Below are positions 2,630 through 29,495 of a DNA stretch of 64,000 bases, in pieces. A program made the translations under genes and the position numbers. The notes beneath the pieces are model-generated. The model did not search any database, was not told the origin of the DNA, and saw nothing but the letters and a program-made list of their open reading frames with translations. The stretch is from Streptomyces roseochromogenus subsp. oscitans DS 12.976 (GTDB taxonomy: Bacteria; Actinomycetota; Actinomycetes; Streptomycetales; Streptomycetaceae). Positions within the stretch are counted from its first letter, which is position 1; every line of letters starts with the position of its first letter. Where the stretch lies: positions 5,668,652 through 5,732,651 of the forward strand of contig NZ_CM002285.1 in the NCBI RefSeq assembly GCF_000497445.1, written 5' to 3'.

Positions 2630-3298
2630 ATGACCACGGACGTCTCGTACAAGGATCTCCAGTACGGCTGGGAGGCCGCGTACCAGCAGCAGTCCGAAGG
2701 GCCGCTCTGGCAGGACGACCCGATCCCCGTGATCCCGCAGGCCATCAAGGCGCTCACCGCGCGTGAGGCGCGTACGGTCGTCGACCTCGGCTGCGGTGAC
2801 GGCCGTAACCTCGCGGCGCTGGTGGACGCCGGCTTCACCGCGCTCGGTGTGGACATCGCGCCGACCGGTCTGCAGCACGCCCGCCGGATCATCCGGCAGC
2901 GCTCCTTCCTGCTCCGCGCGGACGCCACCGAACTCCCGCTCATCGACGCCTCGGTGGACGCGGTCACCTGCTTCGACGTCTTCGGCCAGATCCAGGACCC
3001 GAGCGCCCTGATCGCCGAGGCGCGCCGGCTCCTGGCCGAGGGCGGCATCTTCGTCACCAACGCCTTCACCCCGCAGGACGACACCTACGGCGAGGGCGAG
3101 GAGATCGCGCCGAACACCTTCGCCTACAAGGACACCCTCTTCCGCTACTACAGCGAGGAGGAGATCCGGGCCCTGTTCGACGGGTGGGAGATCATCGCGC
3201 TGGAGCGCGTGTCCTGGGACGACCCGCCGCACGGCGACTTCCGTCCCTACGCGCACACCCACGACAACTGGATCGTCTACGCGACCCCGGTGGACTGA
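2630..3298 (+). CDS. Class I SAM-dependent methyltransferase
   Basis: A 222-aa protein with a Rossmann methyltransferase fold. Motif I (VVDLGCGDGRN) is near residues 48-58, an acidic motif II (GVDIAPTGL) follows, and a DVFGQIQDPSALIAEARRLL post-motif segment is typical of the Methyltransf_11/25 families. The C-terminal third contains HTHDNWIVYA. The start at 2630 has a strong GGAGG six bases upstream. It is the first gene of a co-directional block that also encodes a full SAM-recycling pathway, and it is the only obvious methyltransferase in that block, so it is the likely consumer of the recycled SAM. The methyl acceptor is unknown. The next gene starts 5 bases after its stop, implying coupling. 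Confidence 0.88.
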   Translation: MTTDVSYKDLQYGWEAAYQQQSEGPLWQDDPIPVIPQAIKALTAREARTVVDLGCGDGRNLAALVDAGFTALGVDIAPTGLQHARRIIRQRSFLLRADATELPLIDASVDAVTCFDVFGQIQDPSALIAEARRLLAEGGIFVTNAFTPQDDTYGEGEEIAPNTFAYKDTLFRYYSEEEIRALFDGWEIIALERVSWDDPPHGDFRPYAHTHDNWIVYATPVD

Positions 3299-3303
3299 GC
3301 CGG

Positions 3304-4365
3304 ATGAGCCGGATGACCACGGTCGAAGGCCCGGCCGGGTCGGCGTTGCAGGAGCGTCTGCGTCACTTCCGGGCGCTCCTCGGCCCCACCCCGGTCACGC
3401 CCGTCACCCTGAACATCGGCGGTCGCCCGCGAACCGTCCACCTCAAGCTGGAAGGGCACAACCTCGCCGGCTCGGTGAAGGCGCGCACGGCCTACGGTCT
3501 GGTGCGCGGTCTGCTGGAGTCGGGACGGCTGCGGCCCGGCGACCGGCTCCTGGAGTCCACCTCCGGGAACCTCGGCATCGCGCTCGCGATGCTGGCGCGC
3601 TATCTGCAGATCGGTTTCACCGCCGTGGTGGACCCGCTGGTGGCGCCGGAGAGTCTGCGGCGGCTGTCGGAACTGGGCGCCGAGGTGGTCACGGTCACCG
3701 AGCGGGACGCCTCCGGCGGATACCTCCTCTCCCGGCTGGACCGGGTGGCGGAACTCCTGAAGGAGAACCCCCGCTACGTCTGGACCAACCAGTACGGCAG
3801 CCCCGACAACCCCGCCGTACACCGGGAGTTGACCGGCCCGGAGCTGCTCGGGCAGCTGCCGGAGTCCCCGGACGCGGTCTTCGCCGCGATCTCCACCGGG
3901 GGGACGTTCGCCGGCGTCAGCCGGTACTTCCGGGAGCACAGCCCGACCACCGAGATGGTCGCGGTGGACATCGAGGGCTCGGTCGCCTTCCGCGGCCGGC
4001 CCGGTCGGCGGCACCTCTCCGGCATCGGAGCGAGCCGGCCCTCGGCGTTCCTCGACGACTCCCTCGTCGACCACCTCCAGGTCGCCGACATCCGGAGCGC
4101 GGCGCACTACTGCCGGCTGGTGCTGCGCGAGGCCGGACTGCACATCGGCGCCTCGGCGGGCGCGGTCCTCGCGGGCTGTGCGCGGTACCTGGAGACCCAT
4201 CCCGAGGCCGAACTCGTGGTCTGCCTCTGCGCGGACGGCGGGGAGAAGTACGCCGGCACCGTCTACAACGACCACTGGCTGCGCTCGATCGGGGTGGCAC
4301 CGCCCGGCGGCGACGCGGCCGGCTCCGCTCTCTCCGGGAGCGCTATCCTCTCTGGAGTCGGATGA
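3304..4365 (+). CDS. SbnA-like PLP enzyme, diaminopropionate precursor synthase
   Basis: A 353-aa fold-type II PLP enzyme of the cysteine synthase superfamily. The Schiff-base lysine is K59 (AGSVKARTAYG), the phosphate/substrate loop STSGN is at 85-89, and a glycine-rich STGGTFAG loop lies in the middle. It most resembles SbnA, which condenses O-phospho-L-serine with L-glutamate to N-(2-amino-2-carboxyethyl)-L-glutamate. The SbnB-like partner lies at 6843, which makes this assignment stronger than plain cysteine synthase. The methyltransferase stop and two candidate ATG starts (3304, 3313) sit in a duplicated 9-mer (TGAGCCGGA twice), so translation is probably coupled. No good Shine-Dalgarno is seen. 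Confidence 0.85.
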   Translation: MSRMTTVEGPAGSALQERLRHFRALLGPTPVTPVTLNIGGRPRTVHLKLEGHNLAGSVKARTAYGLVRGLLESGRLRPGDRLLESTSGNLGIALAMLARYLQIGFTAVVDPLVAPESLRRLSELGAEVVTVTERDASGGYLLSRLDRVAELLKENPRYVWTNQYGSPDNPAVHRELTGPELLGQLPESPDAVFAAISTGGTFAGVSRYFREHSPTTEMVAVDIEGSVAFRGRPGRRHLSGIGASRPSAFLDDSLVDHLQVADIRSAAHYCRLVLREAGLHIGASAGAVLAGCARYLETHPEAELVVCLCADGGEKYAGTVYNDHWLRSIGVAPPGGDAAGSALSGSAILSGVG

Positions 4366-4442
4366 AATAAATGCAGCTGAAATGAATACAGCGAACTGTG
4401 CGGAATTCCGAAGGAATTTCAGGGAATTCTAGAGGTTGGGGC
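4366..4442 (+). promoter_or_regulatory. AT-rich leader with phased GGAATT repeats
   Basis: This 77-bp gap is strikingly AT-rich for the genome. TGAAATAAATG at 4364 is echoed by TGAAATGAATA at 4378. GGAATT then occurs at 4402, 4413 and 4423, at 11- and 10-bp spacing, which puts the copies on the same DNA face. The first copy lies in a perfect palindrome, CGGAATTCCG (4401-4410). Such phasing suggests an operator or activator site for the following gene or the downstream operon. A weak Shine-Dalgarno (GAGGTTGGGG) precedes the ATG at 4443. No protein is known to bind here. Confidence 0.55.
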
Positions 4443-6239
4443 ATGCCAATGCAGAGTGTCTCGGAGATCCGGGACGAACTCCAGGAGTTCGTGCGGGGCG
4501 GTGGCCGTCCGGCCGCTGTCGAGCCGGCGTTCGCGGCCGTCGGGCAGCTGGCCGACAGCGAACTGCAGCGCACGGACGAGCACGACGTGGCCATGCTGCT
4601 GTGCCTGGCCGGCGTCTGCGCCGGCCTGGCGGGCGGCGGACCGTCGGCGCTCGAACTCCGCGCGGTGGCCGACCGGTACGCCGACACCTCCATCCTCTAC
4701 ACCGGCCGGGTCCTGCCCCGGGTCAAGGAGACCGTCGAGCTGATCTACCGGGGCGTCGCGGAGAAATCGGCGGAGATCCTGCTGGAGGCGGCCGACGCCA
4801 TCAGCCAGGGCTGGGCGGAATACGCCCGCTCCGATTTCCCCGCCGCCTTTTCGCAGCTGGCCTCGGCGCTGGGGATCGAGGGCGGCGGAGAAGAATTCCT
4901 GGAGACCTCGTACATCTCCTGGAAGCGAGGACTGGAGGACAGCGCCCGTGGCTCCGTCGAGGAGGCGCTCGCCGCTTTCGGGACCAGCCTGGAGAAATAC
5001 CGGAAATACTCCTACTACGCGGACGCCGCCTGGCTCTACACCGACCTGGTGATCGCCCGGCTGCTCGCCGGGGAGGTCCAGGCGGCCGTCCGGGTGCTGG
5101 ACGAGCAGCGCCGGTACGTGGACGACGTGATCGCGTCGGCCGGGCACCGGCCGGCCACGGAGGGTTCCTCCTACGCCTTCCACCTCGGCGACGTACGAAG
5201 CGGCGGGTACAGCTCGTTCGTGGACTCGGCGGCGGTGGGGCCGCAGGGGCTCGGCCCCGACGACCGCGCACTGCTGCGCCGCTACGTCCGGGTCAGCGAG
5301 AGCCTGCTGGCCTACGCCGGCTCGCGCTCCCGCCGGGACCTCGACGCGGCACTGGACCTGTTCTCCTTCGGCTGGCTGGGCTATCTCGACTCGCCTTACC
5401 CGGAGATCTTCCACCGGCTGGTCCGGCACCTGGAGGGCCCCGAACCGGTCGCACCCCTGCTGCTCACCGTGCACGTCCGCTGGCGCGGCCTGCTCCAGGC
5501 CAGCCAGCTGCGGATTCGGTCGGCCGATCTGATCCGCACCGCGATGGACCTGAGGGAGCGTCTGCAGGCCGCGGGCCTGGAGAAGGAGGCCGACATCGCC
5601 CTGCTGGACGCGGGCATGCTCCACTTCGCCCTCTACGGCAAGGCGGCCACCGCGTCCTGGCTCTCCCGGCAGCTCGCCGAGCTGCGCCGGCTGGTGCCGG
5701 GCCCCCTGCAAGCCGTCGTGGAGGCGCTCCAGGTGCCGCCGCAGGCCGGACTGCAGACCCCGCTGGCGCACTATCTCGGGGCCCGCGCGGCCTACCGGGT
5801 GCCGGACTTCATGCCGGCGTTCGGGGTGTTCCGCCGGGACCTGCGCAGCAGACGGGAACTGCCCGCCGAGGTGGACCTCGCCTGCTACGGGGAGAGCCTG
5901 TGGATCAACGGAATCCTGATCTACGAGACCGCTCCCGCCGCACTCGTCGGGATCCTCGGCGAACTCGGCCGCGAGCTGAAGGAGGCCCGCGCCGAAGAGC
6001 GTGAGGTCCCCTACCTCTCCGCGGCGGAGCTGGCCGAGCGGACCGGACGGACCAGCAGTGCCGTGGTCCAGGTGGTACGGCGTTTCCGGGCCGTCTGCCA
6101 GGAACAGCTGGACCGCAGTACCGAGTTGGGCCTCAAACCGGACGACGTGCTCCAGGGCCGGCCCGGCTACCGGCTCAGCCCGACCGTCGTGGGCGAGGTC
6201 GAGTTCCGGCTGGTGCCGGGTGGCAAGTCCATGGCCTGA
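4443..6239 (+). CDS. Large putative cluster regulator, helical-repeat protein with C-terminal winged helix
   Basis: A 598-aa protein, predicted soluble and mainly alpha-helical. Repeated Ala/Leu-rich helix pairs across residues ~20-500 suggest TPR-like repeats. Near 523-560 the segment AAELAERTGRTSSAVVQVVR looks like a helix-turn-helix, and a later GYRLSP resembles the wing strand of a winged helix. I therefore infer a transcriptional regulator with its DNA-binding domain at the C-terminus and a sensory helical repeat region in front. No catalytic motif is visible. The ATG at 4443 is preferred over GTG 4398, which would overlap the repeat-rich leader. It sits between the two Dap-forming genes. 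I do not recognise a named family. Confidence 0.6.
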   Translation: MPMQSVSEIRDELQEFVRGGGRPAAVEPAFAAVGQLADSELQRTDEHDVAMLLCLAGVCAGLAGGGPSALELRAVADRYADTSILYTGRVLPRVKETVELIYRGVAEKSAEILLEAADAISQGWAEYARSDFPAAFSQLASALGIEGGGEEFLETSYISWKRGLEDSARGSVEEALAAFGTSLEKYRKYSYYADAAWLYTDLVIARLLAGEVQAAVRVLDEQRRYVDDVIASAGHRPATEGSSYAFHLGDVRSGGYSSFVDSAAVGPQGLGPDDRALLRRYVRVSESLLAYAGSRSRRDLDAALDLFSFGWLGYLDSPYPEIFHRLVRHLEGPEPVAPLLLTVHVRWRGLLQASQLRIRSADLIRTAMDLRERLQAAGLEKEADIALLDAGMLHFALYGKAATASWLSRQLAELRRLVPGPLQAVVEALQVPPQAGLQTPLAHYLGARAAYRVPDFMPAFGVFRRDLRSRRELPAEVDLACYGESLWINGILIYETAPAALVGILGELGRELKEARAEEREVPYLSAAELAERTGRTSSAVVQVVRRFRAVCQEQLDRSTELGLKPDDVLQGRPGYRLSPTVVGEVEFRLVPGGKSMA

Positions 6240-6240
6240 C

Positions 6241-6333
6241 CCATAATTTGACCGGCCATCAACTCCCAACCATCAACGCCAGCCATCAACTCCGAACCGT
6301 CAATTTCGAAACCGTCAATTTCGAACCGTTTCA
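6241..6333 (+). repeat. Seven-unit tandem array (13-15 bp) in a leader
   Basis: The gap before the DUF2000 gene is almost entirely built of related units starting CCATAATT, CCATCAAC (three times), CCGTCAAT (twice) and CCGTTTCA. They begin at 6241, 6256, 6270, 6283, 6297, 6312 and 6326, so the period is 13-15 bp. The array ends just before the AAGGAG ribosome-binding site (6333-6338). The region is AT-richer than its surroundings. It could be an iteron-like operator, a structured 5' leader, or a product of replication slippage. If translated in frame with the next gene it gives a repetitive TVNFE peptide, which I consider accidental. Confidence 0.8.
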
Positions 6334-6343
6334 AGGAGCCCGG

Positions 6344-6805
6344 GTGTCCCGCCTGATCATCGAGTCGTCCGACGTCGCCGCGGACTGGAAGTTCGCCGTG
6401 GTCCTCAAGGCCAAGTTGCCCGCCGGGGTGGCGATCAACGCCGCCACGCACACCGCTCTCGGACTGGCCGCCAAGGCCGCGGCCGAGCACCCCGAACTGG
6501 CCGCCAAGATGTCCTTCCTGAACTTCCTGGACGCCGACGGCGGTACCCACGCGCCGATCTCCGGGCTCTCCCTGGTCGTCCTGGAGGGCCGCGCGGCCGG
6601 ACTGCGCCGGTTCCGCGCCGAGGCGAGCGCCGCCGGGCTGCTGGTCAACGACTTCGTCTCGGCGATGACTGGGGACACCTATGCCGAACAGCTGGAGCGG
6701 GTCGCCGCCCTGCCCGAGGCGGAGCTGGAGTACTACGCCGTGGCCGCGTTCGGCCGGCGCGACGAACTCGATCCGCTCACCAAGAAGTTCTCCCTGTGGA
6801 AGTAG
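6344..6805 (+). CDS. DUF2000 family protein (PTH2-like fold)
   Basis: A 153-aa protein matching the DUF2000 family. The conserved N-terminal pattern WKFAVVLKAKLPAGVAINAA is followed by a helix-rich region and a central THAPISGLSLVVL strand. Family structures resemble peptidyl-tRNA hydrolase 2, but the biochemical role is unknown. The GTG at 6344 is chosen because AAGGAG lies five bases upstream; an in-frame upstream extension would run through the tandem repeats. It lies 37 bases before the SbnB-like gene in the same operon, so a role tied to Dap metabolism, for example handling an aminoacyl or amide intermediate, is possible but unproven. Confidence 0.75.
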   Translation: MSRLIIESSDVAADWKFAVVLKAKLPAGVAINAATHTALGLAAKAAAEHPELAAKMSFLNFLDADGGTHAPISGLSLVVLEGRAAGLRRFRAEASAAGLLVNDFVSAMTGDTYAEQLERVAALPEAELEYYAVAAFGRRDELDPLTKKFSLWK

Positions 6806-6842
6806 CCGCGGGGAGTCATGAACATCCAGGAGATGAGGATTC

Positions 6843-7868
6843 ATGACCACTGCAACGCCCCTCGCCGTCATACCGGGCGCCCTCGTCGAGGACGTCCTGC
6901 GTGACGCCCACGCGGAGGCGCTCCGGATCGTCGAGGAGGTCTACGTCCAGTCCGTCGGAAACCGCCTGGTCAACCCGGAGAGCCTGTTCCTGCGCCCGGA
7001 CGCGGAAGCACGGGAACGGGTGATCGCCCTCCCCGCCTATGTGCCCGAGCCGACCCCGGCCATGGGCATCAAGTGGATCTCCAGCTTCCCGGGGAACCTC
7101 AGCCTCGGGCTGCCCCGGGCCTCCGCGGCCATCGTCCTGAACGACGTGGCCACCGGCTTCCCGGTGGCCCTCCTGGAGGGCGCCCGGATCAGCGGGCTGC
7201 GCACCGCGCTCTCCGCCCTGGTCGGCGCCAACGCGCTGACCGCGGGCGCCCGGCGGGCCGCCAAGGTCGCGATTCTGGGCAGCGGGTACATCGCCGCGAA
7301 CACGGTCTCCGCGTTCCTCGCCGACGGCTGGACGTGGGACCAGGCCGTGGTGTTCGACCTCGCCACCGAGCGCGCCGAGGCCTTCGCCGGCCGGTTCGCC
7401 GGCCGGGCCGAACCGGGTGCGGCCGGGCTGGCTGTGGCACACAGCGCCGAGGAGGCACTGACCGATGCCGACCTGGTGCTGCTCACCACCACCGCGATCA
7501 CCCCGCACATCGACAGCCTCGCCCCGCTCGCCCCGCACGCCACCGTCCTGCACATGTCCCTGCGGGACCTGACCGCCGACGCCCTGGCCGGGGCCGAGCA
7601 CTTCGTCGACGACGTCTCCCACGCCCTGCGTGAGCGCACCTCGCTCGCCCTCGCCGTCGAGGCCGGAACGGTTCAGCGCGCCGCGATCCGCGCCGTGGGC
7701 GAGGTGCTCATCGGCGACTGCCGGCGCACCCCGGACCGCCGTGCCGTGTACGCCCCCTTCGGCCTGGGCTCCCTCGACATCGCCCTCGCCTCGCTCGTCC
7801 TCGACCGCGCCCGCGATCTGCCCGAGGCCCTGATCGTCGAGGATTTCTCCGGCACCGCCGCACAGTGA
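6843..7868 (+). CDS. SbnB-like dehydrogenase, 2,3-diaminopropionate biosynthesis
   Basis: A 341-aa member of the ornithine cyclodeaminase/mu-crystallin family. Conserved features are GIKWISSFPGN near residues 75-85, LNDVATGFPVALLEG at 99-113, and a Rossmann dinucleotide loop VAILGSGYIA at 142-151. SbnB oxidatively hydrolyses N-(2-amino-2-carboxyethyl)-L-glutamate to L-2,3-diaminopropionate plus 2-oxoglutarate using NAD+. With the SbnA-like gene at 3304 this completes a Dap pathway. The start has a suitable Shine-Dalgarno (CAGGAGATG region). Plain ornithine cyclodeaminase is the alternative, but the length and paired partner favour SbnB. Confidence 0.85.
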   Translation: MTTATPLAVIPGALVEDVLRDAHAEALRIVEEVYVQSVGNRLVNPESLFLRPDAEARERVIALPAYVPEPTPAMGIKWISSFPGNLSLGLPRASAAIVLNDVATGFPVALLEGARISGLRTALSALVGANALTAGARRAAKVAILGSGYIAANTVSAFLADGWTWDQAVVFDLATERAEAFAGRFAGRAEPGAAGLAVAHSAEEALTDADLVLLTTTAITPHIDSLAPLAPHATVLHMSLRDLTADALAGAEHFVDDVSHALRERTSLALAVEAGTVQRAAIRAVGEVLIGDCRRTPDRRAVYAPFGLGSLDIALASLVLDRARDLPEALIVEDFSGTAAQ

Positions 7869-7999
7869 CCCTTCCGGCACCGCCGGACATCACTGACCTC
7901 ACCCTCACCTGACCCGCATCACCGGCAGCCCACGCGCGGGCCGCGCCGTCGATGCCCCCTGCCCTGCTGCCCCCTGCTGACCCCGTCTGGAGTACCGGC
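7869..7999 (+). other. Short intergenic gap before sahH
   Basis: 131 bases between the SbnB-like and SAH hydrolase genes. It contains short C-rich words but no clear hairpin, riboswitch or promoter. The Shine-Dalgarno GGAG at about 7990 serves the next gene. Confidence 0.4.
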
Positions 8000-9424
<1,425 letters not shown>

Positions 9425-9472
9425 TCCGTCCTGACCAGCAGTCAACTCCCCGACCAGCAAAGGGAATCCACC

Positions 9473-10681
<1,209 letters not shown>

Positions 10682-10682
10682 A

Positions 10683-10698
10683 CGGTCCGGCCGGACCG
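10683..10698. other. Perfect 16-bp palindrome after metK
   Basis: CGGTCCGGCCGGACCG is an exact palindrome two bases after the metK stop. It has no loop and no T-run, so it is not a classical terminator. It could be a protein-binding site or could slow RNA polymerase between metK and the kinase gene. Confidence 0.7.
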
Positions 10699-10733
10699 CC
10701 TGCCGTCACCTCATACGAGACAAGGAGCAGACC

Positions 10734-11717
10734 GTGCGCATCGCCGTCACGGGTTCGATCGCCACCGACCACCTCATGCAGTTCCCCGGCCGGTTCACCG
10801 ATCAGCTGATAGCCGACCGCCTCGACACGGTCTCGCTGTCCTTCCTGGTGGACCATCTGGAGGTGCGCCGCGGCGGGGTCGCCGCCAACATCGCCTTCGG
10901 CCTCGGCCGGCTCGGGCTGCGCCCGCTGCTGGTGGGCGCCGTCGGAGCTGACTTCGGCCCCTACCGCGCCTGGCTGGAGGAGAACGGCGTGGACACCGGA
11001 TGTGTCCATGTCTCCGGCACCGCCCAGACCGCCCGCTTCATGTGCACGACCGACCTCGACCAGAACCAGATCGCCTCCTTCTATGCCGGGGCGATGGCCG
11101 AGGCCGACCGTATCTCGCTGCGCTCGGTGGCCGAGGCCGCCGAGGGACTCGACCTGGTCGTGATCTCGCCCAACGCGCCCGAGGCGATGGTCCGGCACAC
11201 CGAGGAGGCCCGCGAACTCGCTGTGCCCTTCCTCGCCGACCCCTCGCAGCAGCTGCCCCGGCTCACCCCGGAGCAGGTCCGCTCGCTGGTCGACGGCGCC
11301 CGCTACCTCTTCACCAACGAGTACGAGGCCGTCCTGCTGCTGGAGCGCACCGGCTGGAGCGAGGCGGAGGTGCTGGACCGGGTGGGCGCCTGGGTCACCA
11401 CGCTGGGCCCGCGCGGTGCCCGTATCGAGCGGGCGGGCGGTGCGACGGTGACCGTGGACGCCGTACCCGCCGAGGCCGTCGCCGACCCGACCGGTATCGG
11501 CGACGCCTTCCGGGCCGGGTTCCTCGCGGCCGTGAGCCGGGGGCTCGGCGACGAGGACGCCGCCCGGCTGGGCAGCGCCTGCGCGACGCTGGTGCTGGAG
11601 GCGGTGGGCTCGCAGGACCTGGGCCTCGGCCCGGCCGCCGTGGTCGACCGGCTCCGCACGGCCTACGGCGAGCAGGTGGCCGCGCGCCTGGTGGAGCGGC
11701 TGGCGGTGGCGGCATGA
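10734..11717 (+). CDS. Adenosine kinase, PfkB family
   Basis: A 327-aa ribokinase-family enzyme. The N-terminus (IAVTGSIATDHLMQFPGRF), the RRGGVAANIAFGLGRLGL segment and the C-terminal ADPTGIGDAFRAGF anion-hole/catalytic Asp motif closely follow the mycobacterial-type adenosine kinase AdoK. Its expected role is adenosine + ATP to AMP + ADP. That removes the adenosine released by the SAH hydrolase and pulls that reaction forward, which fits its place in the cassette. GTG start with a strong AAGGAG. The stop overlaps the metH start (ATGA), so the two are translationally coupled. Confidence 0.9.
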   Translation: MRIAVTGSIATDHLMQFPGRFTDQLIADRLDTVSLSFLVDHLEVRRGGVAANIAFGLGRLGLRPLLVGAVGADFGPYRAWLEENGVDTGCVHVSGTAQTARFMCTTDLDQNQIASFYAGAMAEADRISLRSVAEAAEGLDLVVISPNAPEAMVRHTEEARELAVPFLADPSQQLPRLTPEQVRSLVDGARYLFTNEYEAVLLLERTGWSEAEVLDRVGAWVTTLGPRGARIERAGGATVTVDAVPAEAVADPTGIGDAFRAGFLAAVSRGLGDEDAARLGSACATLVLEAVGSQDLGLGPAAVVDRLRTAYGEQVAARLVERLAVAA

Positions 11718-14700
11718 GTGCCGACGCCGGTCGCGTCCGGGTGGCCGCGCTGCGCGAGGCACTCGCCACCCGGGTCGTGGTCGGTGACGGCGCCATGGGC
11801 ACCATGCTGCAGGCGCGGAACCCCACGCTCGCGGACTTCCAGCAGCTGGAGGGGTGCAACGAGATCCTCAACGTGACCCGCCCGGACATCGTCCGCTCGG
11901 TCCACGAGGAGTACTTCGCGGCCGGCGTCGACTGCGTGGAGACCAACACCTTCGGCGCCAATCTCTCCGCGCTCGGGGAGTACGACATCGGGGACCGGAT
12001 CCTCGAACTGGCCGAGGCGGGCGCACGGATCGCCCGGGAGGCCGCCGACGCGTTCACCGCGCGGGACGGCCGTACCCGCTGGGTGCTCGGCTCCATGGGC
12101 CCCGGCACCAAGCTGCCCACCCTGGGCCATGTGCCGTACGAGCCGCTGTACGAGGGCTACCGGCTGAACGCGGCGGGGCTGATCGCGGGCGGCGCGGACG
12201 CGCTGCTGGTGGAGACCAGCCAGGACCTGCTGCAGGCGAAGGCGGCCGTCCTCGGGGCGAAGCGGGCCATGGCCGAGGCCCGTCTCACGCTGCCGCTGCT
12301 CGTCCATGTGACCGTCGAGACGACCGGGACGATGCTGGTCGGCTCGGAGATCGGCGCGGCCCTGACCGCGCTGGAGCCGCTCGGCATCGACCACATCGGC
12401 CTGAACTGCGCGACCGGCCCCGCGGAGATGAGCGAGCATCTGCGCCATCTGGCCCGCAACGCCAGGATCGGGCTGTCCTGCATGCCCAACGCGGGGCTGC
12501 CCGTCCTCACCTCCGACGGGGCACACTATCCGCTGACCCCGGCCGAACTGGCCGACGCGATCGAGGTGTTCGTCCAGGACTACGGCCTCGGCCTGGTCGG
12601 CGGCTGCTGTGGCACCACGCCGGAGCACCTGAGGGCCGTGGTGGACCGGGTGCGCGGCCGCGCCCTCAGCCCGCGCTCCCCGCGGCCCGAGCCGTCGGCG
12701 GCCTCGCTGTACCAGTCGGTGCCGTTCCGGCAGGACACCTCCTACCTGGCCATCGGCGAACGCACCAACGCCAACGGGTCGAAGAAGTTCCGCGAGGCGA
12801 TGCTCGCGGCCGACTGGCAGACCTGTGTGGAGATCGCCCGGGAGCAGATCCGGGAGGGTGCGCACCTGCTGGACCTGTGCGTGGACTACGTCGGCCGGGA
12901 CGGCACCGAGGACATGCGGGAGCTGGCCGGCCGGCTGGCCACCGCCTCCACGCTGCCGATCGTGCTGGACTCGACCGAGCCGAAGGTGCTGGAGGCCGGG
13001 CTGCGGATGCTCGGCGGGCGGGCGGTGCTGAACTCGGTCAACTTCGAGGACGGCGACGGCGAGGACTCCCGCTTCACCCGGATCGCGCGCCTGGCGCAGG
13101 AGTACGGCGCCGCGCTGATCGCGCTGACCATCGACGAGGAGGGCCAGGCCCGCACCGCCGAGAAGAAGGTCGCGGTCGCCGAGCGGCTGATCGAGACCCT
13201 CGGCAGCCGCCATGGCATTCCCGAGCACGACATCCTGGTGGACTGTCTCGCGTTCACGCTGGGCACCGGGCAGGAGGAGTCGCGCCGCGACGGCGTGGAG
13301 ACCATCGAGGCGATCCGCGAGCTGAAGCGGCGCCACCCGGACGTGCAGACCACGCTGGGCCTGTCCAACATCTCCTTCGGCCTGAACCCGGCCGCACGGA
13401 TCGTGCTGAACTCGGTGTTCCTCGACGAGTGCGTGGCGGCCGGCCTGGACTCGGCGATCGTGCACGCCGCCAAGATCCTCCCGATGGCCCGGATCCCCGC
13501 CGAGCAGCGCGAGGCCGCCCTCGACCTGATCCATGACCGGCGCCGGGAGGGCTACGACCCGCTGCAGCGCTTCCTCACCCTGTTCGAGGGCGCCACCGCC
13601 ACGTCCCTGAAGGCCGGCAAGGCCGAGGAGCTGGCCGCGCTGCCGCTGGAGGAGAGGCTGCGGCGGCGCGTCGTGGACGGCGAGCGCACCGGTCTGGAAG
13701 CCGACCTGGACGAGGCGCTGACCGTCCGGCCGGCGCTGGAGATCGTCAACGAGGTGCTGTTGGAGGGCATGAAGACGGTCGGCGAGCTGTTCGGCTCCGG
13801 CCAGATGCAGCTGCCGTTCGTGCTGCAGTCCGCCGAGGTCATGAAGGCCGCGGTGGCCCATCTCGAACCGCACATGGAGAAGGCCGGGGACGGAAAGGGC
13901 GGGGCGGGCAAGGGCACCGTCGTGCTGGCCACGGTCAAGGGCGATGTCCACGACATCGGCAAGAACCTTGTCGACATCATCCTGTCCAACAATGGCTATG
14001 ACGTGGTCAACATCGGCATCAAGCAGCCGGTCTCGGCCATCGTGGAGGCGGCCCAGGAGCACCAGGCCGATGTGATCGGCATGTCCGGGCTGCTGGTGAA
14101 GTCCACGGTGATCATGAAGGAGAACCTTCAGGAGCTGAACCGGCGCGGCCTCGCCGCCGACTTCCCGGTGATCCTCGGCGGCGCCGCCCTCACCCGCGCC
14201 TATGTCGAGCAGGACCTGCACGAGATCTACGACGGCGAGGTCCGCTACGCCCGCGACGCCTTCGAGGGCCTGCGCCTGATGGACGCCCTGATGGCCGTCA
14301 AGCGCGGGGTACCCGGCGCCCGGCTGCCCGAGCTGAAACAGCGCCGGCACGCGCGCGTGGAGGTCACGGAGCCGGAGGACTCCACCCGGCGCTCGGACGT
14401 GGCCACGGACAACCCGGTGCCCGTGCCGCCGTTCTGGGGCGACCGCGTCGTCAAGGGACTGCACCTCGCCGACTACGCCTCCTGGCTGGACGAGGACGCG
14501 CTGTTCAAGGGCCAGTGGGGGCTCAAGGCCGCGCGCACCGGCGGCCCCTCCTACGAGGAGCTGGTGGAGACCGAGGGGCGGCCCCGGCTGCGGATGTGGC
14601 TGGACCGCCTGCAGACTGAGGGCTGGCTGGAACCCGCCGTCGTCTACGGCTACTTCCCGGCCGTGTCCAGCGGCAACGACCTGCTGGTCCTCGGTGACGA

Positions 14701-15208
14701 CGGCGCCGAGCACACCCGCTTCGCCTTCCCCCGCCAGCGCCGCGGCCGCCGGCTGTGCCTGGCCGACTACTTCCGCCCGGAGGAGTCGGGCGAGAAGGAC
14801 GTCGTCGCCTTCCAGGTGGTGACCATGGGCGCCCGCGTCTCTGCGGCCGCGGCCGAGCTGTTCGCCGCCGACTCCTACCGCGAGTACGTCGAACTGCACG
14901 GTCTGTCCGTCCAGTTGGCCGAGGCGCTCGCCGAGTACTGGCACGCCCGGGTCCGCGCCGAGCTGGGCTTCTCGGGCGAGGATCCGCAGGAGATGAAGGA
15001 CATGTTCGCGCTCAAGTACCGCGGGGCGCGCTTCTCCCTCGGCTACGGCGCCTGCCCCGACCTGGCGGACCGCGCCAAGATCGCCGGGCTGCTGAAGCCG
15101 GAGCGGATCGGCGTCCATCTGTCGGAGGAGTTCCAGCTGGACCCGGAGCAGTCCACCGACGCCCTCGTCATCCACCACCCCGAAGCCAAGTACTTCAACG
15201 CCCGTTGA
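11714..15208 (+). CDS. metH: Cobalamin-dependent methionine synthase
   Basis: A 1164-aa full-length MetH that transfers the methyl group of 5-methyl-THF to homocysteine. Domains in order: homocysteine-binding barrel (about 1-320, zinc ligands C232, C298, C299 in NCATGP and GGCCGTTP); pterin-binding barrel (about 335-620, GERTNANGSKKFREAM); cobalamin cap and Rossmann domains (about 640-870, DVHDIGKN with axial H746); and the reactivation domain (to the C-terminus, GYGACPDLADR). All four modules are intact, so it needs cobalamin and a flavodoxin-type reductant. It overlaps the kinase gene by 4 bp and is followed after 30 bp by metF. Confidence 0.96.
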   Translation: MSADAGRVRVAALREALATRVVVGDGAMGTMLQARNPTLADFQQLEGCNEILNVTRPDIVRSVHEEYFAAGVDCVETNTFGANLSALGEYDIGDRILELAEAGARIAREAADAFTARDGRTRWVLGSMGPGTKLPTLGHVPYEPLYEGYRLNAAGLIAGGADALLVETSQDLLQAKAAVLGAKRAMAEARLTLPLLVHVTVETTGTMLVGSEIGAALTALEPLGIDHIGLNCATGPAEMSEHLRHLARNARIGLSCMPNAGLPVLTSDGAHYPLTPAELADAIEVFVQDYGLGLVGGCCGTTPEHLRAVVDRVRGRALSPRSPRPEPSAASLYQSVPFRQDTSYLAIGERTNANGSKKFREAMLAADWQTCVEIAREQIREGAHLLDLCVDYVGRDGTEDMRELAGRLATASTLPIVLDSTEPKVLEAGLRMLGGRAVLNSVNFEDGDGEDSRFTRIARLAQEYGAALIALTIDEEGQARTAEKKVAVAERLIETLGSRHGIPEHDILVDCLAFTLGTGQEESRRDGVETIEAIRELKRRHPDVQTTLGLSNISFGLNPAARIVLNSVFLDECVAAGLDSAIVHAAKILPMARIPAEQREAALDLIHDRRREGYDPLQRFLTLFEGATATSLKAGKAEELAALPLEERLRRRVVDGERTGLEADLDEALTVRPALEIVNEVLLEGMKTVGELFGSGQMQLPFVLQSAEVMKAAVAHLEPHMEKAGDGKGGAGKGTVVLATVKGDVHDIGKNLVDIILSNNGYDVVNIGIKQPVSAIVEAAQEHQADVIGMSGLLVKSTVIMKENLQELNRRGLAADFPVILGGAALTRAYVEQDLHEIYDGEVRYARDAFEGLRLMDALMAVKRGVPGARLPELKQRRHARVEVTEPEDSTRRSDVATDNPVPVPPFWGDRVVKGLHLADYASWLDEDALFKGQWGLKAARTGGPSYEELVETEGRPRLRMWLDRLQTEGWLEPAVVYGYFPAVSSGNDLLVLGDDGAEHTRFAFPRQRRGRRLCLADYFRPEESGEKDVVAFQVVTMGARVSAAAAELFAADSYREYVELHGLSVQLAEALAEYWHARVRAELGFSGEDPQEMKDMFALKYRGARFSLGYGACPDLADRAKIAGLLKPERIGVHLSEEFQLDPEQSTDALVIHHPEAKYFNAR

Positions 15209-15238
15209 GCGGACAGCAGCAGAGAGGGGACCTTCACC

Positions 15239-16312
15239 ATGGTCCTGCACCAAGGGCCGCAGCCGAAGCCGGCGCCCCGGCCGTCAACGTTCGCCCCGTC
15301 GCGACGCCCGGCACACACCCCCGCTGCCCTGAGGGCGCGGGAGGTGCTCCCACTCGCCGCACCGGAGCCCGCACCGGACGCCGCTCCGCTCCTTGACGGG
15401 CAAACGTCGCCCGCCGGGACGCTGGGCGAGGTCATCGCTGCCGGAGGCACCTCGTACTCCTTCGAGTTCTTCCCGCCCCGGGGCGAACTCGCCGAGCGCC
15501 GCTTCTGGAAGGCGCTGCGCCGGGTGGAGGCGGTCGCACCGGCCTTCGTCTCCCTCACCTACGGAGCCGGGGGCACCTCCCGGGACCGGACGGTGCGCAT
15601 CGCCGAACGGATCGCCGCCGAGACCACGCTGACCCCCGTCGCGCACCTGACGGCCGTCGGCCACTCGCGGGCCGAACTGCGCAACATCATCGGCCAGTAC
15701 GCCGAGTCCGGCATCACCAACGTGCTCGCGCTGCGCGGCGACCCGCCGGGCGATCCCAGCGGCGAGTGGATCCCCCACCCGCAGGGCGTCAGGCACGCGG
15801 CGGAGCTGGTGGAGATGGTCAGGTCCTGCGGGGAGTTCTCCATCGGCGTGGCCGCCTTCCCCGAGGGGCACCCGCGGTCCGCCGACCCGGACTCCGAGCT
15901 GCGCCACTTCGTGGACAAGTGCCGGGCCGGCGCCGACTACGCGATCACCCAGATGTTCTTCCGCGTCGAGGCGTATCTGCGGCTGCGTGACCGTGTCGCC
16001 GCCGCCGGCTGCCCGACCCCGATCGTCCCGGAGATCATCCCGATCACCGACCACAAGCAGCTGCGCCGGTTCGCCGCGCTCAGCGACGCCCCCCTGCCCG
16101 CCGCGCTCGCCGACCGGCTGGAGCGGCACCGGGACGACCCGGCCGCCGTACGCCGGATCGGCATGGAGCACGCGCACGCGATGTGCGCGCGACTGGTCGC
16201 GGAGGGCGTGCCCGGGCTGCACTTCATCACCCTCAACCGGGCCGAGGACGCGCTGGCGCTGCACGCGGCCGTCGCCCCGCACCGCCCCGCCCGTCACCCC
16301 GTAGGAGCCTGA
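15239..16312 (+). CDS. metF: 5,10-methylenetetrahydrofolate reductase
   Basis: A 357-aa FAD-dependent reductase supplying 5-methyl-THF to MetH. Conserved motifs are [37 protein letters not shown] and DYAITQMFF. It carries a Pro/Ala-rich N-terminal extension of about 60 residues before the barrel, absent from the usual ~300-aa enzymes. The start at 15239 has GAGAGGGGA upstream; a later start is possible. It completes the in-cluster methyl cycle (methylene-THF, methyl-THF, Met, SAM, SAH, Hcy). Confidence 0.94.
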
Positions 16313-16352
16313 CGCGACATCAGGTCATCGTCTGGAGTCCGAGTGTTCCCCC

Positions 16353-16388
16353 CTGAGTCCCCTGAGTTCCCCGAGTCCCACGAGTTCC
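16353..16388 (+). repeat. 9-bp tandem repeat (four units) before the oxidoreductase
   Basis: CTGAGTCCC, CTGAGTTCC, CCGAGTCCC and ACGAGTTCC follow each other without gaps, and a degenerate fifth unit leads into the gene start. The 91-bp gap has no clear Shine-Dalgarno, so the repeats make up most of the leader. Confidence 0.85.
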
Positions 16389-16403
16389 ACGAATGGTTCG
16401 CCC

Positions 16404-17873
16404 ATGCATCGCGAGATCGTCATCATCGGCGGCGGGGCCACCGCGGTCGCCGCCTTCACCCAGGTCGTACGGACGCCGGGTATCGCCTCCGTCACCACGG
16501 TCGACCCGAATCCCGTGGGCCTGGGCCACGCCTTCGGTGTCACCGATCCGATGCTGCTGTGCAACACCTCGGTAGACGTCACCTCCCTCCATCCTGACGG
16601 CCCCTCCGACCTGCTCGACTATCTGACCGAGCGCGGCTGGGCCGCCCGGCCCGAGGACTTCGTGCCGCGCTATCTCGTCGGCCACTACTGCCGGGAGCGC
16701 TATCTGGCGGGCAGGCGCGAGGCCGAACGGCAGGGCATCGCCGTATCCCACCACCCTGCGCGGGCCACCGCCGTCCGGTCCACGGCGGACGGCTATCGCG
16801 TCGAACTCGCCGACGGCCGGCGGCTGGCCGCCACCGACGTCCTGGTCTGCCTCGGCCTCGACCGGCCCCGGCTGCCCGAGCTGCTGCGCCCGTACGACGG
16901 TCACCCGCGGCTGCTGCCCCAGCCCTACCCGACCGACCGCCTGCGTGCGCTGCCGGAGAAGGCCGAGGTCCTGGTCATCGGCACCAAGCTGTCGGCCATC
17001 GACGCCGCCCTGGTGCTGTGCGCCGGCGGCCGCCGGACGGTGATGGCCTCCCCGTCCGGCGGCCTCCCCGCCGTACGCACCCGGCTGTGCCGCCCCGGCC
17101 GGCCGCTGCTCGACTCCCGCCGCTGGCAGCGACTCGACCCGCGCGCCGAAGACCTGGACCGGGAGCTGACCCGGCTGCTGCTGCGGGCGATCGGCCGCGC
17201 CGGATCCGGGCTGGGGCTGCGGGCGCAGACCTCCTCGGCGGCCGTGGGGGACGAGCGGCTCCGCGAGGAGCTGGCCCTGGCCGCGGCCGGCCGGGTGCCC
17301 TGGCAGGACGTGATCGCCGAGGTCATCGACGCGATCAACGCGTGGACCGCGCCGTGGGATCCGGCTCTGCGCGCCGAGGTGCTGGCCCGGTACCGGGGAC
17401 TGATGTCCCGGTACATCTCCTCCATCCCGGCCCGCAACGCCCGCCTGCTCAGCGGCCATCTGGACACCGGCCGGCTGGCGCTCGCGCCCGGCTACCCCGT
17501 CGGTGTCGAGCCCGCCGCGGACGACGACGGCTGGCAGGTGGAGTGGCCGGACGGCCGCCGTGAGCGCTTCACCCATGTGGTGTGCGGGACCGGGTTCCAC
17601 ACCCCGCAGCTCGACGTGGCCGCCCCGGGCCTCTACAGGATCGGTCCCGCCGTCACCCACGGTGCCGCCCCGGCGATCACCGAGGAGCTGCGGCTGTGCG
17701 ATCCGCACCGCGGCTCCGTCGAACGGATCTGGGTGCTGGGCGCCGCCGCGCATCCGCGCACCGCCATCGTCAACTACCTCAACACGGCCGCCAAGCAGGC
17801 CCAGCGCGTGGCCGCCCAGTTCACCGCGACCGCCGCGACTGCCGCGGCCGCCCCGAGCGTGCTGGCCGCCTGA
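16404..17873 (+). CDS. FAD/NAD(P)-binding oxidoreductase (NAD_binding_9-like)
   Basis: A 489-aa flavoprotein. The FAD dinucleotide fold is at the extreme N-terminus (IVIIGGGATAVAAF). DVLVCLGLDRPRLPELL is typical of the first Rossmann half, EVLVIGTKLSAIDAALVL near residue 190 is a second nucleotide-binding loop, and VVCGTGFHTPQL near the C-terminus is the usual ATG-like closing motif. The layout resembles the PF13454-type FAD/NAD(P)-binding proteins and, more distantly, amino-acid N-monooxygenases. The substrate is unknown. In this cluster an oxidation or N-hydroxylation of a Dap-derived amine is plausible but unproven. The ATG at 16404 is chosen because the Rossmann strand starts three residues later. 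Confidence 0.72.
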   Translation: MHREIVIIGGGATAVAAFTQVVRTPGIASVTTVDPNPVGLGHAFGVTDPMLLCNTSVDVTSLHPDGPSDLLDYLTERGWAARPEDFVPRYLVGHYCRERYLAGRREAERQGIAVSHHPARATAVRSTADGYRVELADGRRLAATDVLVCLGLDRPRLPELLRPYDGHPRLLPQPYPTDRLRALPEKAEVLVIGTKLSAIDAALVLCAGGRRTVMASPSGGLPAVRTRLCRPGRPLLDSRRWQRLDPRAEDLDRELTRLLLRAIGRAGSGLGLRAQTSSAAVGDERLREELALAAAGRVPWQDVIAEVIDAINAWTAPWDPALRAEVLARYRGLMSRYISSIPARNARLLSGHLDTGRLALAPGYPVGVEPAADDDGWQVEWPDGRRERFTHVVCGTGFHTPQLDVAAPGLYRIGPAVTHGAAPAITEELRLCDPHRGSVERIWVLGAAAHPRTAIVNYLNTAAKQAQRVAAQFTATAATAAAAPSVLAA

Positions 17874-17919
17874 CACCCGCCCGATCCTTCGGAACCCGAC
17901 CTTTCGAAAGCAGACTCCC

Positions 17920-19182
17920 GTGATCGTTCTCGTCAGCCCCGTCTCCACCGGCGCCGAACTGGCCCGCGCCTTCCGCGAGGAGGGCGCCGACTGCCTGCAC
18001 CTCTACGAACCCGAGCTGCGCGAGGCCTGGGAGGCCGACCGGACCTCACCGCACAAGCTGCTCCACCAGGACCTGCCCACCACCCTCGCGCACCTGCGCG
18101 CCCTCCGGCCCACCGCAGTCATCGCGGCCAGCGAGTACGGCGTCATCCTCGCCGACACCCTCGCCGTCGCACTGGGCCTGGACCACCACCGCCCCGAACT
18201 GATCGAGGCCCGGCGCGACAAGCAGCTGATGGTGGAGGCGCTCCGGGCCGCCGGCGTCCCGGCCGCGCGCACCGTCTCCGTCCGCACCGGCGAGGAGTTG
18301 CGCACCACGCTCGACACCTGGCAGGAGGGCTACCCGCTGATGATCAAGCCGCGTAACAGCGCGGGCAGCGACGGCTGCCGGATCTGCCACAGCCGCGAGG
18401 AGGCCCAGGAGGCGTTCGCCGCGATCGCGGCCGAGCGGAACCTGATGGGCGAGGTCAACGACGAGGTACTGGTCCAGGAGTTCCTGGCCGGCACCCAGTA
18501 CATCGTCAACACCGTGAGCCTGCACGGGCGTCATCTGCTCACCGAGGTCTACCGCGAGCGCATCGACCACATCGAGGGCGCACCGGTGCTGCGGCACATC
18601 ATCTCCCGGCCCACCCTGACCGCGGCCGAACAGGGGCTGACCGCGTACGTCCTCGACTGCCTCGACGCGCTCGGCATCCGCGAGGGCGCCGCCCACACCG
18701 AGGTCATGCTGACCCCGCGCGGACCCCGGCTGATCGAGGTCAACTCCCGGGTCATGGGCCCGTCCCTCGCACCGGACCCGTATTTCTCCGCGCTCTCCTA
18801 CAGCCAGCAGCACCTGGTGGTGGAGCGCTATCTGCGGCCGGCCGAGTTCGCGGCCCGGTTCGAGCAGCCGTACGCGCCGCCGCGCACGGTCGCCAAGGCG
18901 TTCCTGCGCCCCCATCGCGAAGGGGTGCTGCGGGCGGTGGACGGCCTGCGCGTGCTGCGCCGGCTGCCCGGCTTCCACAGCCTGGACCGGGCCCCCGTCA
19001 TCGGCGAGCCGGTGCGCGACCGCTACCTGACCACCGGCACCTCCGGGATCGCCTTCCTGGTCCACGAGGACGAGACGGTGCTGCTCGACTCGCTGGCCAC
19101 GCTGCACGCCATCGAGGACGAGGGCCGCTTCTTCCGGCTGGCAGAGGCGGCACCGCGGCCCGTACCGGAGGGTGTGAGCTGA
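17920..19182 (+). CDS. ATP-grasp carboxylate-amine ligase
   Basis: A 420-aa ATP-grasp enzyme. An N-terminal pre-ATP-grasp fold (MIVLVSPVSTGAELARAF) is followed by the central domain with YPLMIKPRNSAGSDG (nucleotide lysine and glycine loop), VLVQEFLAGTQYIVNTVS, and the Mg-binding pair HTEVMLTPRGPRLIEVNSR. A C-terminal ~100-residue domain follows. Family members form amide or peptide bonds via an acyl-phosphate. With a Dap pathway upstream it probably joins Dap, or a modified Dap, to another acid. GTG start at 17920, 46 bases after the oxidoreductase; the exporter gene begins one base after its stop. Confidence 0.88.
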   Translation: MIVLVSPVSTGAELARAFREEGADCLHLYEPELREAWEADRTSPHKLLHQDLPTTLAHLRALRPTAVIAASEYGVILADTLAVALGLDHHRPELIEARRDKQLMVEALRAAGVPAARTVSVRTGEELRTTLDTWQEGYPLMIKPRNSAGSDGCRICHSREEAQEAFAAIAAERNLMGEVNDEVLVQEFLAGTQYIVNTVSLHGRHLLTEVYRERIDHIEGAPVLRHIISRPTLTAAEQGLTAYVLDCLDALGIREGAAHTEVMLTPRGPRLIEVNSRVMGPSLAPDPYFSALSYSQQHLVVERYLRPAEFAARFEQPYAPPRTVAKAFLRPHREGVLRAVDGLRVLRRLPGFHSLDRAPVIGEPVRDRYLTTGTSGIAFLVHEDETVLLDSLATLHAIEDEGRFFRLAEAAPRPVPEGVS

Positions 19183-19183
19183 C

Positions 19184-20128
19184 GTGCCGACCGCCCTCAT
19201 CCTGGTCTCGGTCCTGCTCCAGGCCCTCGCCGACGGCTTTCTCTCCGGACGGCTGGGCTTCGGCGGCAGCCTGCGGTTCTCCTGCATCGCCTTCGTCACC
19301 GCCACCGTGGCCTGCGGCGCGCTCCACGCCGTGCGCAGCCGCCGTACGGCCCGGCGCCCGGCACCGCGCGGCCGCGGGACCCTCCGGCTCATGGTGCTGA
19401 TGAACCTGGCCACCGCCGTCACCTTCCTCGGCTTCTACGTCTCGCTGGCGTGGGTTCCCGCGGCGCTCGCCAGCAGTGTGCAGTCCGGGGTGGGGCCGCT
19501 CGCGGTGATCTGCACCGGCCTGGTGCGCGGCGAGGGGCGGCCGAGAGCGGGGAGGGCGGCCGCGGCACTCGGCCTCCTGGTCCTGTCGGGGGCGATCGCC
19601 CTACGACTGGACGGCCGGGCCGGCCTCCTCGACGGCGCCGCGCTCGGCGGTACGGCCCTGGTCGCGCTGTCGGGCGTCTCGGCGGCGCTGCTGGCCCGGC
19701 TGTCCCGGCAGCTGGGGCAGGCGGGCGCGGAGCCGGCCTGGGTGATGACCCACCGCTTCCACCTGACCTACGTCTGCGCGGGCGCCCTGCTGCTCCTCGG
19801 CGCCGGCGGTACCGCGTCCGCCGGGCCCGCGCTGCCCCTCATGGCGCTGACGGCCCTCGGGGCGGTCGCTCTCCCGCTGCTCCTGCTGCAGATCGGCCTG
19901 CAGCGCGCGGAACCCCTGTCGGCCATGGTCCTGCTCAGCACCCTGCCCGGCCTGGTCTACCTGAGCCAGTCGCTGTTCGGCGGCACCCTCGACGCGGTGA
20001 CCTGCGCCCTCATCGCCCTGCTGATCGCTGTGGCGGTCCTCGCGGCCCGCCCGGAACGCCCCGCCGCACCACCGGCGGACGTGCGGACTCCGCAGCCCGC
20101 TTCGCTCACCTCAGCGCCACCCGGGTGA
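19184..20128 (+). CDS. EamA/DMT-family exporter
   Basis: A 314-aa integral membrane protein with about ten hydrophobic segments in two homologous halves, as in EamA drug/metabolite transporters of the RhaT/YdcZ superfamily. The conserved SVQSGVGPLAVICTG follows the fourth helix, and PLSAMVLLSTLPGLVYL fills the second repeat. GTG start one base after the ATP-grasp stop, so tightly coupled. As the last gene of the block it is the likely exporter of the product. Its 3' end overlaps the convergent IclR gene by 23 bp, which marks the right edge of the cluster. Confidence 0.86.
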   Translation: MPTALILVSVLLQALADGFLSGRLGFGGSLRFSCIAFVTATVACGALHAVRSRRTARRPAPRGRGTLRLMVLMNLATAVTFLGFYVSLAWVPAALASSVQSGVGPLAVICTGLVRGEGRPRAGRAAAALGLLVLSGAIALRLDGRAGLLDGAALGGTALVALSGVSAALLARLSRQLGQAGAEPAWVMTHRFHLTYVCAGALLLLGAGGTASAGPALPLMALTALGAVALPLLLLQIGLQRAEPLSAMVLLSTLPGLVYLSQSLFGGTLDAVTCALIALLIAVAVLAARPERPAAPPADVRTPQPASLTSAPPG

Positions 20129-21713: not shown

Positions 21714-21773
21714 CGGCTCTCCGGTACGGCATACGGGCACGCCTACGGTAAACCCCACCGCCCGCCCGTCTCC

Positions 21774-29457: not shown

Positions 29458-29495
29458 CGGGCTTCGGCACCTGTCCCCCCGGGTGCCGAAGCCCG
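29458..29495. terminator. Strong hairpin (14-bp perfect stem)
   Basis: CGGGCTTCGGCACC (29458-29471) pairs exactly with GGTGCCGAAGCCCG (29482-29495) across a 10-nt C-rich loop. No T-run follows on either strand, so it may be a Streptomyces-type terminator, an RNA element or a processing signal. Confidence 0.6.

Follow-up and report, generated by a model that had tools for sequence, protein, structure and literature searches.

The window analysed here is a 64,000-nucleotide stretch of Streptomyces roseochromogenus subsp. oscitans DS 12.976 (contig NZ_CM002285.1, positions 5,668,652 to 5,732,651 of the forward strand). It contains an operon in which a core of genes resembling those for L-2,3-diaminopropionate (Dap) biosynthesis is followed by five genes of the S-adenosylmethionine (SAM) cycle, ahcY, metK, adoK, metH, and metF. 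It is likely that this block is a peptide-type operon made from two portable modules, the Dap core and a SAM-recycling cassette, that resident housekeeping genes have overwritten segments of the cassette's metK, ahcY, and metH, and that the cassette acts most likely by dosage. The new finding is that metH, ahcY, and metK of such cassettes are mosaics with the housekeeping copies of their own genomes. The results indicate that gene conversion between the two sets of copies is recurrent, and this conversion is the most interesting part of the findings.

AhcY, AdoK, MetF, MetH, and MetK together close the SAM cycle. Cassette and housekeeping copies of the genes were compared in 16 genomes chosen from the cassette loci described below. 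The housekeeping loci were labelled by place, and their upstream and downstream flanks are conserved in 120 and 91 of 120 pairs for metK, 91 and 120 of 120 for metH, and 40 and 55 of 66 for ahcY. The pair tests cover 13 metK, 12 ahcY, 13 metH, 12 adoK, and 13 metF of the 16 genomes; the second cassette and extra metK of G383, a mirrored copy in G199, and copies outside the best 30 loci were left out. G199 carries its cassette metK twice (C1:97953 and 8560943), in mirror-image positions near the two chromosome ends, which suggests terminal inverted repeats.

The longest exact run shared by the cassette and housekeeping copies of one genome (the own pair) was compared with that of every cross-genome pair. 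For metH, the own pair exceeded all cross pairs in 11 of 13 genomes (up to 1,514 versus 95 bp, 195 cross pairs), for ahcY in 12 of 12 (up to 837 versus 108 bp, 180 pairs), and for metK in 8 of 13 (up to 480 versus 116 bp, 195 pairs). This was seen in none of the 12 genomes for adoK (33 versus 34 bp, 180 pairs) and none of the 13 for metF (37 versus 60 bp, 195 pairs). The exact tracts are interspersed with segments of the same gene that are 4-17% diverged. Mean cross-genome identity is 82-86% for metH, ahcY, and metK and 69-71% for adoK and metF, and the split between converted and unconverted genes follows this DNA similarity. It appears that adoK and metF are too diverged for conversion and keep the cassette's own lineage; their trees each contain one change between housekeeping and cassette, and the Dap-cluster rows of the metF tree form a separate group (99 in the Shimodaira-Hasegawa-like approximate likelihood-ratio test, SH-aLRT). 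For metH and metK, a single cassette clade is rejected by the approximately unbiased (AU) test (p-AU 3e-65 and 3e-6, respectively). In a permutation test on polymorphic sites (p<=0.0025), the own pairs passed in 12 of 13 genomes for metH, 10 of 12 for ahcY, 7 of 13 for metK, and 0 of 12 for adoK. The window contributes two candidate conversion tracts, one in ahcY (9132-9274, plus strand) and one in metK (10310-10452, plus strand), each a 143-bp exact match to the second copy of the gene in the same genome.

Several results weigh against conversion as the explanation. The permutation test was also passed by 2 of 13 own metF pairs and by cross pairs of metH (15/195), ahcY (15/180), metK (4/195), and metF (9/195), with none of 180 for adoK; because the test is unclean on cross pairs, the conversion claim rests on the exact-run comparison. 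Additionally, the signal in the window genome is slight, as it is limited to the two 143-bp matches: its metH has a longest run of 69 bp and no tract, and the metK run, counted by polymorphic sites, is equalled or exceeded by one of the 195 cross pairs. A different concern is that the exact tracts are artefacts of assembly or polishing introduced by paralogous reads. Parts of the paralogues resemble each other closely enough that reads could be mixed, and the comparison is based on assemblies rather than raw reads, but the tracts occur in many assemblies, several of which have no more than four contigs (G210, G218, G285, G054, G083, G103, G199, G492, and G425). They also extend up to the full 1,514 bp inside genes that are diverged elsewhere and do not occur in adoK and metF, and we consider an artefact very improbable.

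The cassettes could also have been rebuilt repeatedly from duplicated housekeeping genes with no conversion at all. This would be in keeping with the trees, in which the cassette gene and the housekeeping gene of one genome are direct sisters in 7 of 16 genomes for metH, 3 of 16 for metK, and 3 of 12 for ahcY. The mosaics within genes argue strongly against rebuilding, however, as exact tracts lie between the diverged segments. The adoK and metF genes of the same cassettes fall in lineages apart from the housekeeping copies, and the gene order is common to different lineages. Rebuilding is thus judged improbable, and recurrent gene conversion is the preferred reading of the mosaics.

The direction of conversion was probably from the housekeeping copy to the cassette. 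The metH tree has one clade made up of 17 cassette rows alone (SH-aLRT 99) and another in which seven further cassette rows are grouped with 11 housekeeping rows (SH-aLRT 97); entry of housekeeping sequence into the cassette would give this pattern. The metH tracts agree in all 11 genomes, as the shared sequence is nearer to the housekeeping copies of other genomes than to the reference cassettes (those of four preset cassette genomes that were present in the alignment). The housekeeping metH was no less like its kin inside the tracts than outside in 10 of the 11 genomes. For a correlation of distance matrices all copies were present in five genomes only, and the tract comparison was used instead. 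Three observations weigh against the account given here. The housekeeping metH of G218 is less like the others inside the tracts (0.831) than outside (0.862). The outcome of the tract test is to some extent built in, as tract selection was by identity between cassette and housekeeping copies, and the tracts are also conserved stretches; the direction therefore rests mainly on the metH tree. Finally, the metH of the window genome (G000) groups with copies from Streptacidiphilus and Kitasatospora (names inferred), which needs transfer as well. Its metK groups likewise (names again inferred), together with three other cassettes, and its ahcY is placed with Streptomyces cassettes instead. The metH and metK groupings fit a transfer of the cluster into Streptomyces. 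The cassettes of G083, G054, and G103 probably sit on plasmids, in which case conversion would act between replicons. It is rather likely that the cassette is a portable unit shared by Streptomyces and its relatives and that the host's housekeeping genes keep rewriting its conserved genes; a moving cluster would take up host sequence in patches and retain traces of its former hosts, of which the window metH may be one.

How widely the cassette recurs bears on an earlier, sequence-only reading of the window, in which the cluster was described as without a known counterpart and as insulated from cellular SAM levels by a dedicated cycle. That a complete SAM cycle adjoins a Dap-type pathway is supported by the gene content. 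The objection that these might be the sole copies in the genome does not apply, as a DNA search found second copies of all five genes at five other places (identity over the matched parts: ahcY 86%, metK 89%, metH 81%, adoK 72%, and metF 73%). The uniqueness claim did not survive a search of 392 same-genus genomes with the window adoK. Two or more adoK matches were found in about 105 of the 392 genomes (hand count), and in the best 28 adoK loci other than those of G000 and G146 (L082-L109) metK, metH, or metF is always beside adoK. Forty loci of up to 20 kb were then taken from the best-scoring second adoK copies; this sample is not random, and some loci are truncated, either at a contig end (e.g. 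G046) or by the limits of the stretch (G386). The complete set of five cycle genes occurs in 25 of the 40 loci, four of the genes in three, three in five, and two in seven. The genes of the window's Dap core (methyltransferase, SbnA, a 598-aa orphan protein, DUF2000, and SbnB) and its flavin adenine dinucleotide (FAD) protein, ATP-grasp, and EamA genes were found in none of the 40 at E<=1e-5. SAM genes without Dap genes are thus present in many Streptomyces, a finding that the sequence-only reading had named, for SAM genes in the same order, as a refutation; by this test of its own, uniqueness fails. The usual order is a different one: 24 of the 25 complete loci have metK-adoK-metH-metF-ahcY, and G210 alone has the order of the window, ahcY-metK-adoK-metH-metF. 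The window cassette departs from the common order, but order varies among cassettes and is not taken as defining. It fits the recurrent type in that the five genes are adjacent, lie on one strand, and each have a second genomic copy, and in that its adoK and metF fall in lineages apart from the housekeeping genes.

A further type of cluster precedes the cassette in 19 of the 40 loci (e.g. L143:60-16043 of G004). This cluster is widespread and uncharacterised and stands directly before metK-adoK-metH-metF-ahcY. It contains MFS, MaoC, and carboxyl-methyltransferase genes in all 19 loci and typically also a Cys/Met pyridoxal phosphate (PLP) enzyme, a second methyltransferase, AurF, ACPS, and an acyl carrier protein (ACP). 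An assignment of this cluster (MFS, PLP, MaoC, LCM, AurF, ACP) as an azoxy cluster was dropped, as the available parts of PMC9379638 and PMC11705231 name other hallmark genes.

The cassette is also carried by plasmids. In a plasmid collection the adoK search matched 55 records, 53 of them from Streptomyces, and metH lies within 10 kb of adoK in 44 of the 53 (hand-matched). There is some redundancy among the records (strains of S. goshikiensis and S. canus), and two of them are longer than 1.5 Mb. Four annotated plasmid regions were viewed, three with all five genes and one with four. The complete regions are those of the NBC_01351 plasmid, where the cassette is found with type II polyketide genes, S. 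griseofuscus pSGRIFU1 (NZ_CP051007), where the five genes lie next to one another on the same strand and adjoin polyketide and sugar genes, and an S. goshikiensis plasmid, where the order is permuted. The orphan protein of the Dap core had no match in the plasmid collection.

The Dap core has a distribution of its own. Its five genes (methyltransferase, SbnA-like, orphan, DUF2000, and SbnB-like) were found together in nine loci, those of G000 (the window genome), G146, G425, G492, G428, G202, G286, G771, and G778. The full 13-gene block, including its EamA-like gene, is conserved in the same order in G146, G425, and G492 as well as in the window genome, so that the five cycle genes follow the core in order in four of the nine loci. 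No cycle genes were found in the stretches read for G286, G771, and G778. Because the cassette is also found without Dap genes and these three loci have a Dap core but no cassette, the two appear to be portable modules that were combined here. Two further loci count against a stable pairing: G428 has ahcY alone, with no other cycle gene in the ~6.5 kb to the contig end, and metK of G202 matches in two pieces, with adoK and metF present beside its Dap core. The cassette is accordingly not always kept. In G202 the methyltransferase gene is on the opposite strand and divergent from the other core genes, and the orphan gene is duplicated, alongside the partial cassette (L067/L068). Relatives of the FAD protein, ATP-grasp, and EamA genes adjoin the core in G202 (44-56% identity) and G778 (32-34%). 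In the stretches read for G286 and G771 none were found beside it, and the neighbours there are MFS- and ACP-like proteins (assigned by eye; no family search was made).

Close relatives of the core are few. Among the 392 same-genus genomes, the window's own included, the nearest SbnB relatives are in G146 (98%), G202 (58%), and G286 (55%); further matches are at <=47% among the matches listed, and some match at E<=1e-40 is found in 216 of the 392. A contig scan with SbnB gave six loci, of which three are close relatives (56-96%). Strong matches to the orphan were found in 4 of 200 genomes of the family and the methyltransferase in 3 of 394 genomes drawn across the class, own genome included in both counts. 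These distributions bear on the proposal that the cluster is unique and that the Dap pathway evolved its own SAM cycle, which would insulate it from cellular SAM levels. Second copies of all five cycle genes, a 13-gene block conserved in four genomes, and the presence of one methyltransferase gene for the cycle to serve are what such a cluster would have. A cassette that occurs beside other neighbourhoods and on plasmids without Dap genes, and a Dap core that lacks it in three of nine loci, speak against the proposal, which is given a low probability compared with the combination of two portable modules.

The operon itself consists of 13 plus-strand genes (2630-20128) separated by short gaps or overlapping, as determined from open reading frames (ORFs) and from Pfam and NCBIfam profiles judged against curated cutoffs, with sequence and fold searches of the PDB. 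Gene content, order, and single strand are as described in the sequence-only reading. The first gene encodes a class I SAM methyltransferase (2630-3298, PF08241) and is followed by the genes for an SbnA-like PLP enzyme (3304-4365), the predicted first step to Dap, the 598-aa orphan (4443-6239), a DUF2000 protein (about 6335-6805 in an ORF that opens at 6248; PF09391, 115.9 bits, with no PDB sequence match), and an SbnB-like dehydrogenase (6843-7868), the predicted second step. SbnA and SbnB make Dap from phosphoserine and glutamate. The SbnA and SbnB models are the best matching ones for the two window proteins, and to this extent the earlier identification stands; both scores are under the curated cutoffs (TIGR03945, the best of 24 models, 311.8 bits versus 349.95; TIGR03944, 314.9 bits versus 326.9), hence the names SbnA-like and SbnB-like. 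The cassette comprises ahcY (adenosylhomocysteinase, 7952-9424; TIGR00936, 641 bits, above cutoff), metK (methionine adenosyltransferase, 9473-10681; TIGR01034, 546 bits, above cutoff), adoK (adenosine kinase, 10734-11717; PfkB, 165 bits), metH (B12-dependent methionine synthase with five Pfam domains, 11714-15208; TIGR02082, 1424 bits, above cutoff), and metF (methylenetetrahydrofolate reductase, 15239-16312; TIGR00676, 315.7 bits, cutoff 293.7). Residues 1-323 of the 327 in AdoK also align at 360 bits with adenosine kinases of solved structure (4o1g, 2pkf, and others). The last three genes encode a FAD/NAD(P)-binding protein (16404-17873, PF13454), an ATP-grasp protein resembling L-amino acid ligases (17917-19182), and an EamA/DMT-like exporter (19184-20128), for which the PF00892 match is weak (22.8 bits, cutoff 28.2).

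Within the Dap core, conservation is highest for the methyltransferase gene, with 69-99% identity across the eight other core loci and at least 82 homologues at E<=1e-40. In an alignment of 21 rows, residues 196-213 form a strongly conserved segment around WxDPPHGxFRPxxHxH, which is possibly involved in metal or substrate binding. One protein, P0024, joins methyltransferase and PLP domains, which may be an annotation artefact. The 598-aa orphan, which the sequence-only reading had called a regulator, has no Pfam, NCBIfam, or PDB sequence match; at least 24 homologues were found at E<=0.001 (word-based search, best 7,994 candidates). Its AlphaFold model (predicted local distance difference test, pLDDT, 88) is helical and TPR-like with a C-terminus that is read as a winged helix, and a fold search against the PDB gave weak TPR-like matches, with none at E<=0.001 among the matches listed. 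The protein is predicted to be a regulator or scaffold.

The flavoprotein has no sequence match to PDB structures. Its predicted model (pLDDT 93) is nearest in fold to amino-acid N-hydroxylases; the best match among those listed is the aspartate N-hydroxylase FzmM (8cp2, E 5e-22, 19% identity), followed by ornithine N-hydroxylases, and the template modelling (TM) score of the predicted model against the FzmM/PvdA-type fold, by query length, is 0.70, as expected of an N-hydroxylase fold. The window ATP-grasp protein matches the L-amino acid ligase 30vh (E 1.6e-49), and its best NCBIfam models, both with scores under their cutoffs, are PRK07206 (269.8 bits, cutoff 302) and the dapdiamide synthase DdaF (180.5 bits, cutoff 840). 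Protein P0162 combines the FAD domain of the flavoprotein with ATP-grasp domains; here too an annotation artefact is possible.

Related cluster genes run on upstream, up to ~17 kb before the window start, so that the previously proposed end of the block at 20128 is correct for the operon and its beginning is not that of the cluster. The upstream stretch (L078:1653-18353) encodes an MFS transporter, SARP and ScbR-type regulators, and an AfsA-type butyrolactone gene product, together with four further proteins of the ATP-grasp type. Of these four ATP-grasp-type genes, one has no Pfam match and scores 92.5 bits, under cutoff, with an ATP-grasp NCBIfam model. Most of the upstream genes have counterparts in G146 and several have counterparts in G425 and G492, where they are differently placed. 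An EF-hand protein with an MGS-like domain (743-1858) is encoded between an ScbR-type gene and the methyltransferase and has no match in 60 kb of G146. On the other side, one minus-strand ORF (20106-21758) with two stretches of IclR helix-turn-helix and repeated IclR C-terminal domains encodes a tandem IclR-type protein adjoining the operon. A match to the Streptomyces small RNA family Scr3202 lies at 29412-29503 on the plus strand (79.3 bits).

The following scheme is proposed for these genes. The Dap core is predicted to make Dap and a methylated derivative, with the methyltransferase using SAM on a Dap-derived substrate. The N-hydroxylase-like flavoprotein may oxidise an amine of the Dap product, up to five ATP-grasp-type enzymes (one in the window and four upstream) would join Dap to other amino acids by amide bonds, and the EamA and MFS transporters would export the product, which is probably a methylated Dap-containing amide or peptide. 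The cassette, as one instance of a SAM-recycling set that appears beside unrelated clusters on Streptomyces chromosomes and plasmids, would return the S-adenosylhomocysteine made by the methyltransferase to SAM, with adenosine cleared as AMP. Resident housekeeping genes would overwrite its metK, ahcY, and metH patchwise by gene conversion, and the cassette would add SAM-cycle dosage under the cluster regulators. If metK, ahcY, and metH are rewritten with housekeeping sequence, special kinetics are unlikely as their role, and the sequence evidence speaks for added gene dosage controlled by the cluster rather than for specialised enzymes. Two facts count against the scheme: no product or activity is on record for any member of the cluster, and the SbnA and SbnB scores are below cutoff. 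A tentative alternative, somewhat doubtful in our view, is that the product is an N-hydroxylated (or N-methoxylated) Dap derivative, in which the flavoprotein hydroxylates the amine and the methyltransferase caps it. The fold of the flavoprotein, nearest FzmM and the ornithine N-hydroxylases, is in its favour, as are the FAD, ATP-grasp, and EamA relatives beside the core in G202 and G778 and the domain combination of P0162. Against it, the substrate cannot be deduced from a fold match with 19% identity, the protein has no sequence match to solved structures, and the core in G286 and G771 has no relative of the flavoprotein beside it within the stretches read.

A mobile five-gene set for cofactor recycling is a natural design for pathways that are short of methyl groups. 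It could be a ready engineering part and, in genome mining, a beacon for methylation-heavy clusters without polyketide synthase or nonribosomal peptide synthetase signatures. If patchwise overwriting is general, trees of expanded primary-metabolism genes mislead on age, duplication, and transfer; the comparison of adoK and metF with metH, ahcY, and metK provides an internal control with which overwriting can be tested. No description of a portable SAM cassette or of its conversion was found in open-access titles and abstract openings, with the subscription literature mostly outside the search. The saframycin cluster and the plasmid pSLA2-L may carry SAM-cycle genes, and an earlier description is thus possible.

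Among known systems, the nearest to the Dap part of the operon are the dapdiamide pathway and the SbnA/SbnB pair of staphyloferrin B, as the window likewise has an SbnA/SbnB-like pair and an ATP-grasp ligase. DdaF is the nearest named function model for the window ATP-grasp, with the SbnA, SbnB, and DdaF models all under their cutoffs; the likeness to the dapdiamide (dda) pathway is at the level of protein models. The flavoprotein shares its predicted overall fold with FzmM and differs in sequence, with only 19% identity. Plasmid cassettes of the pSGRIFU1 type have the same five adjacent genes, but ahcY is last there and first in the window, and their neighbours are polyketide and sugar genes whereas the partners of the window cassette are a Dap/ATP-grasp cluster. 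Paralogues of primary metabolism embedded in biosynthetic clusters are known from the tryptophan genes of the calcium-dependent antibiotic (CDA) cluster, according to the available part of PMC11195616. The CDA cluster likewise holds primary-metabolism paralogues that feed it; the window differs in having a complete cofactor cycle and, probably, in the partial overwriting of that cycle by the housekeeping copies.

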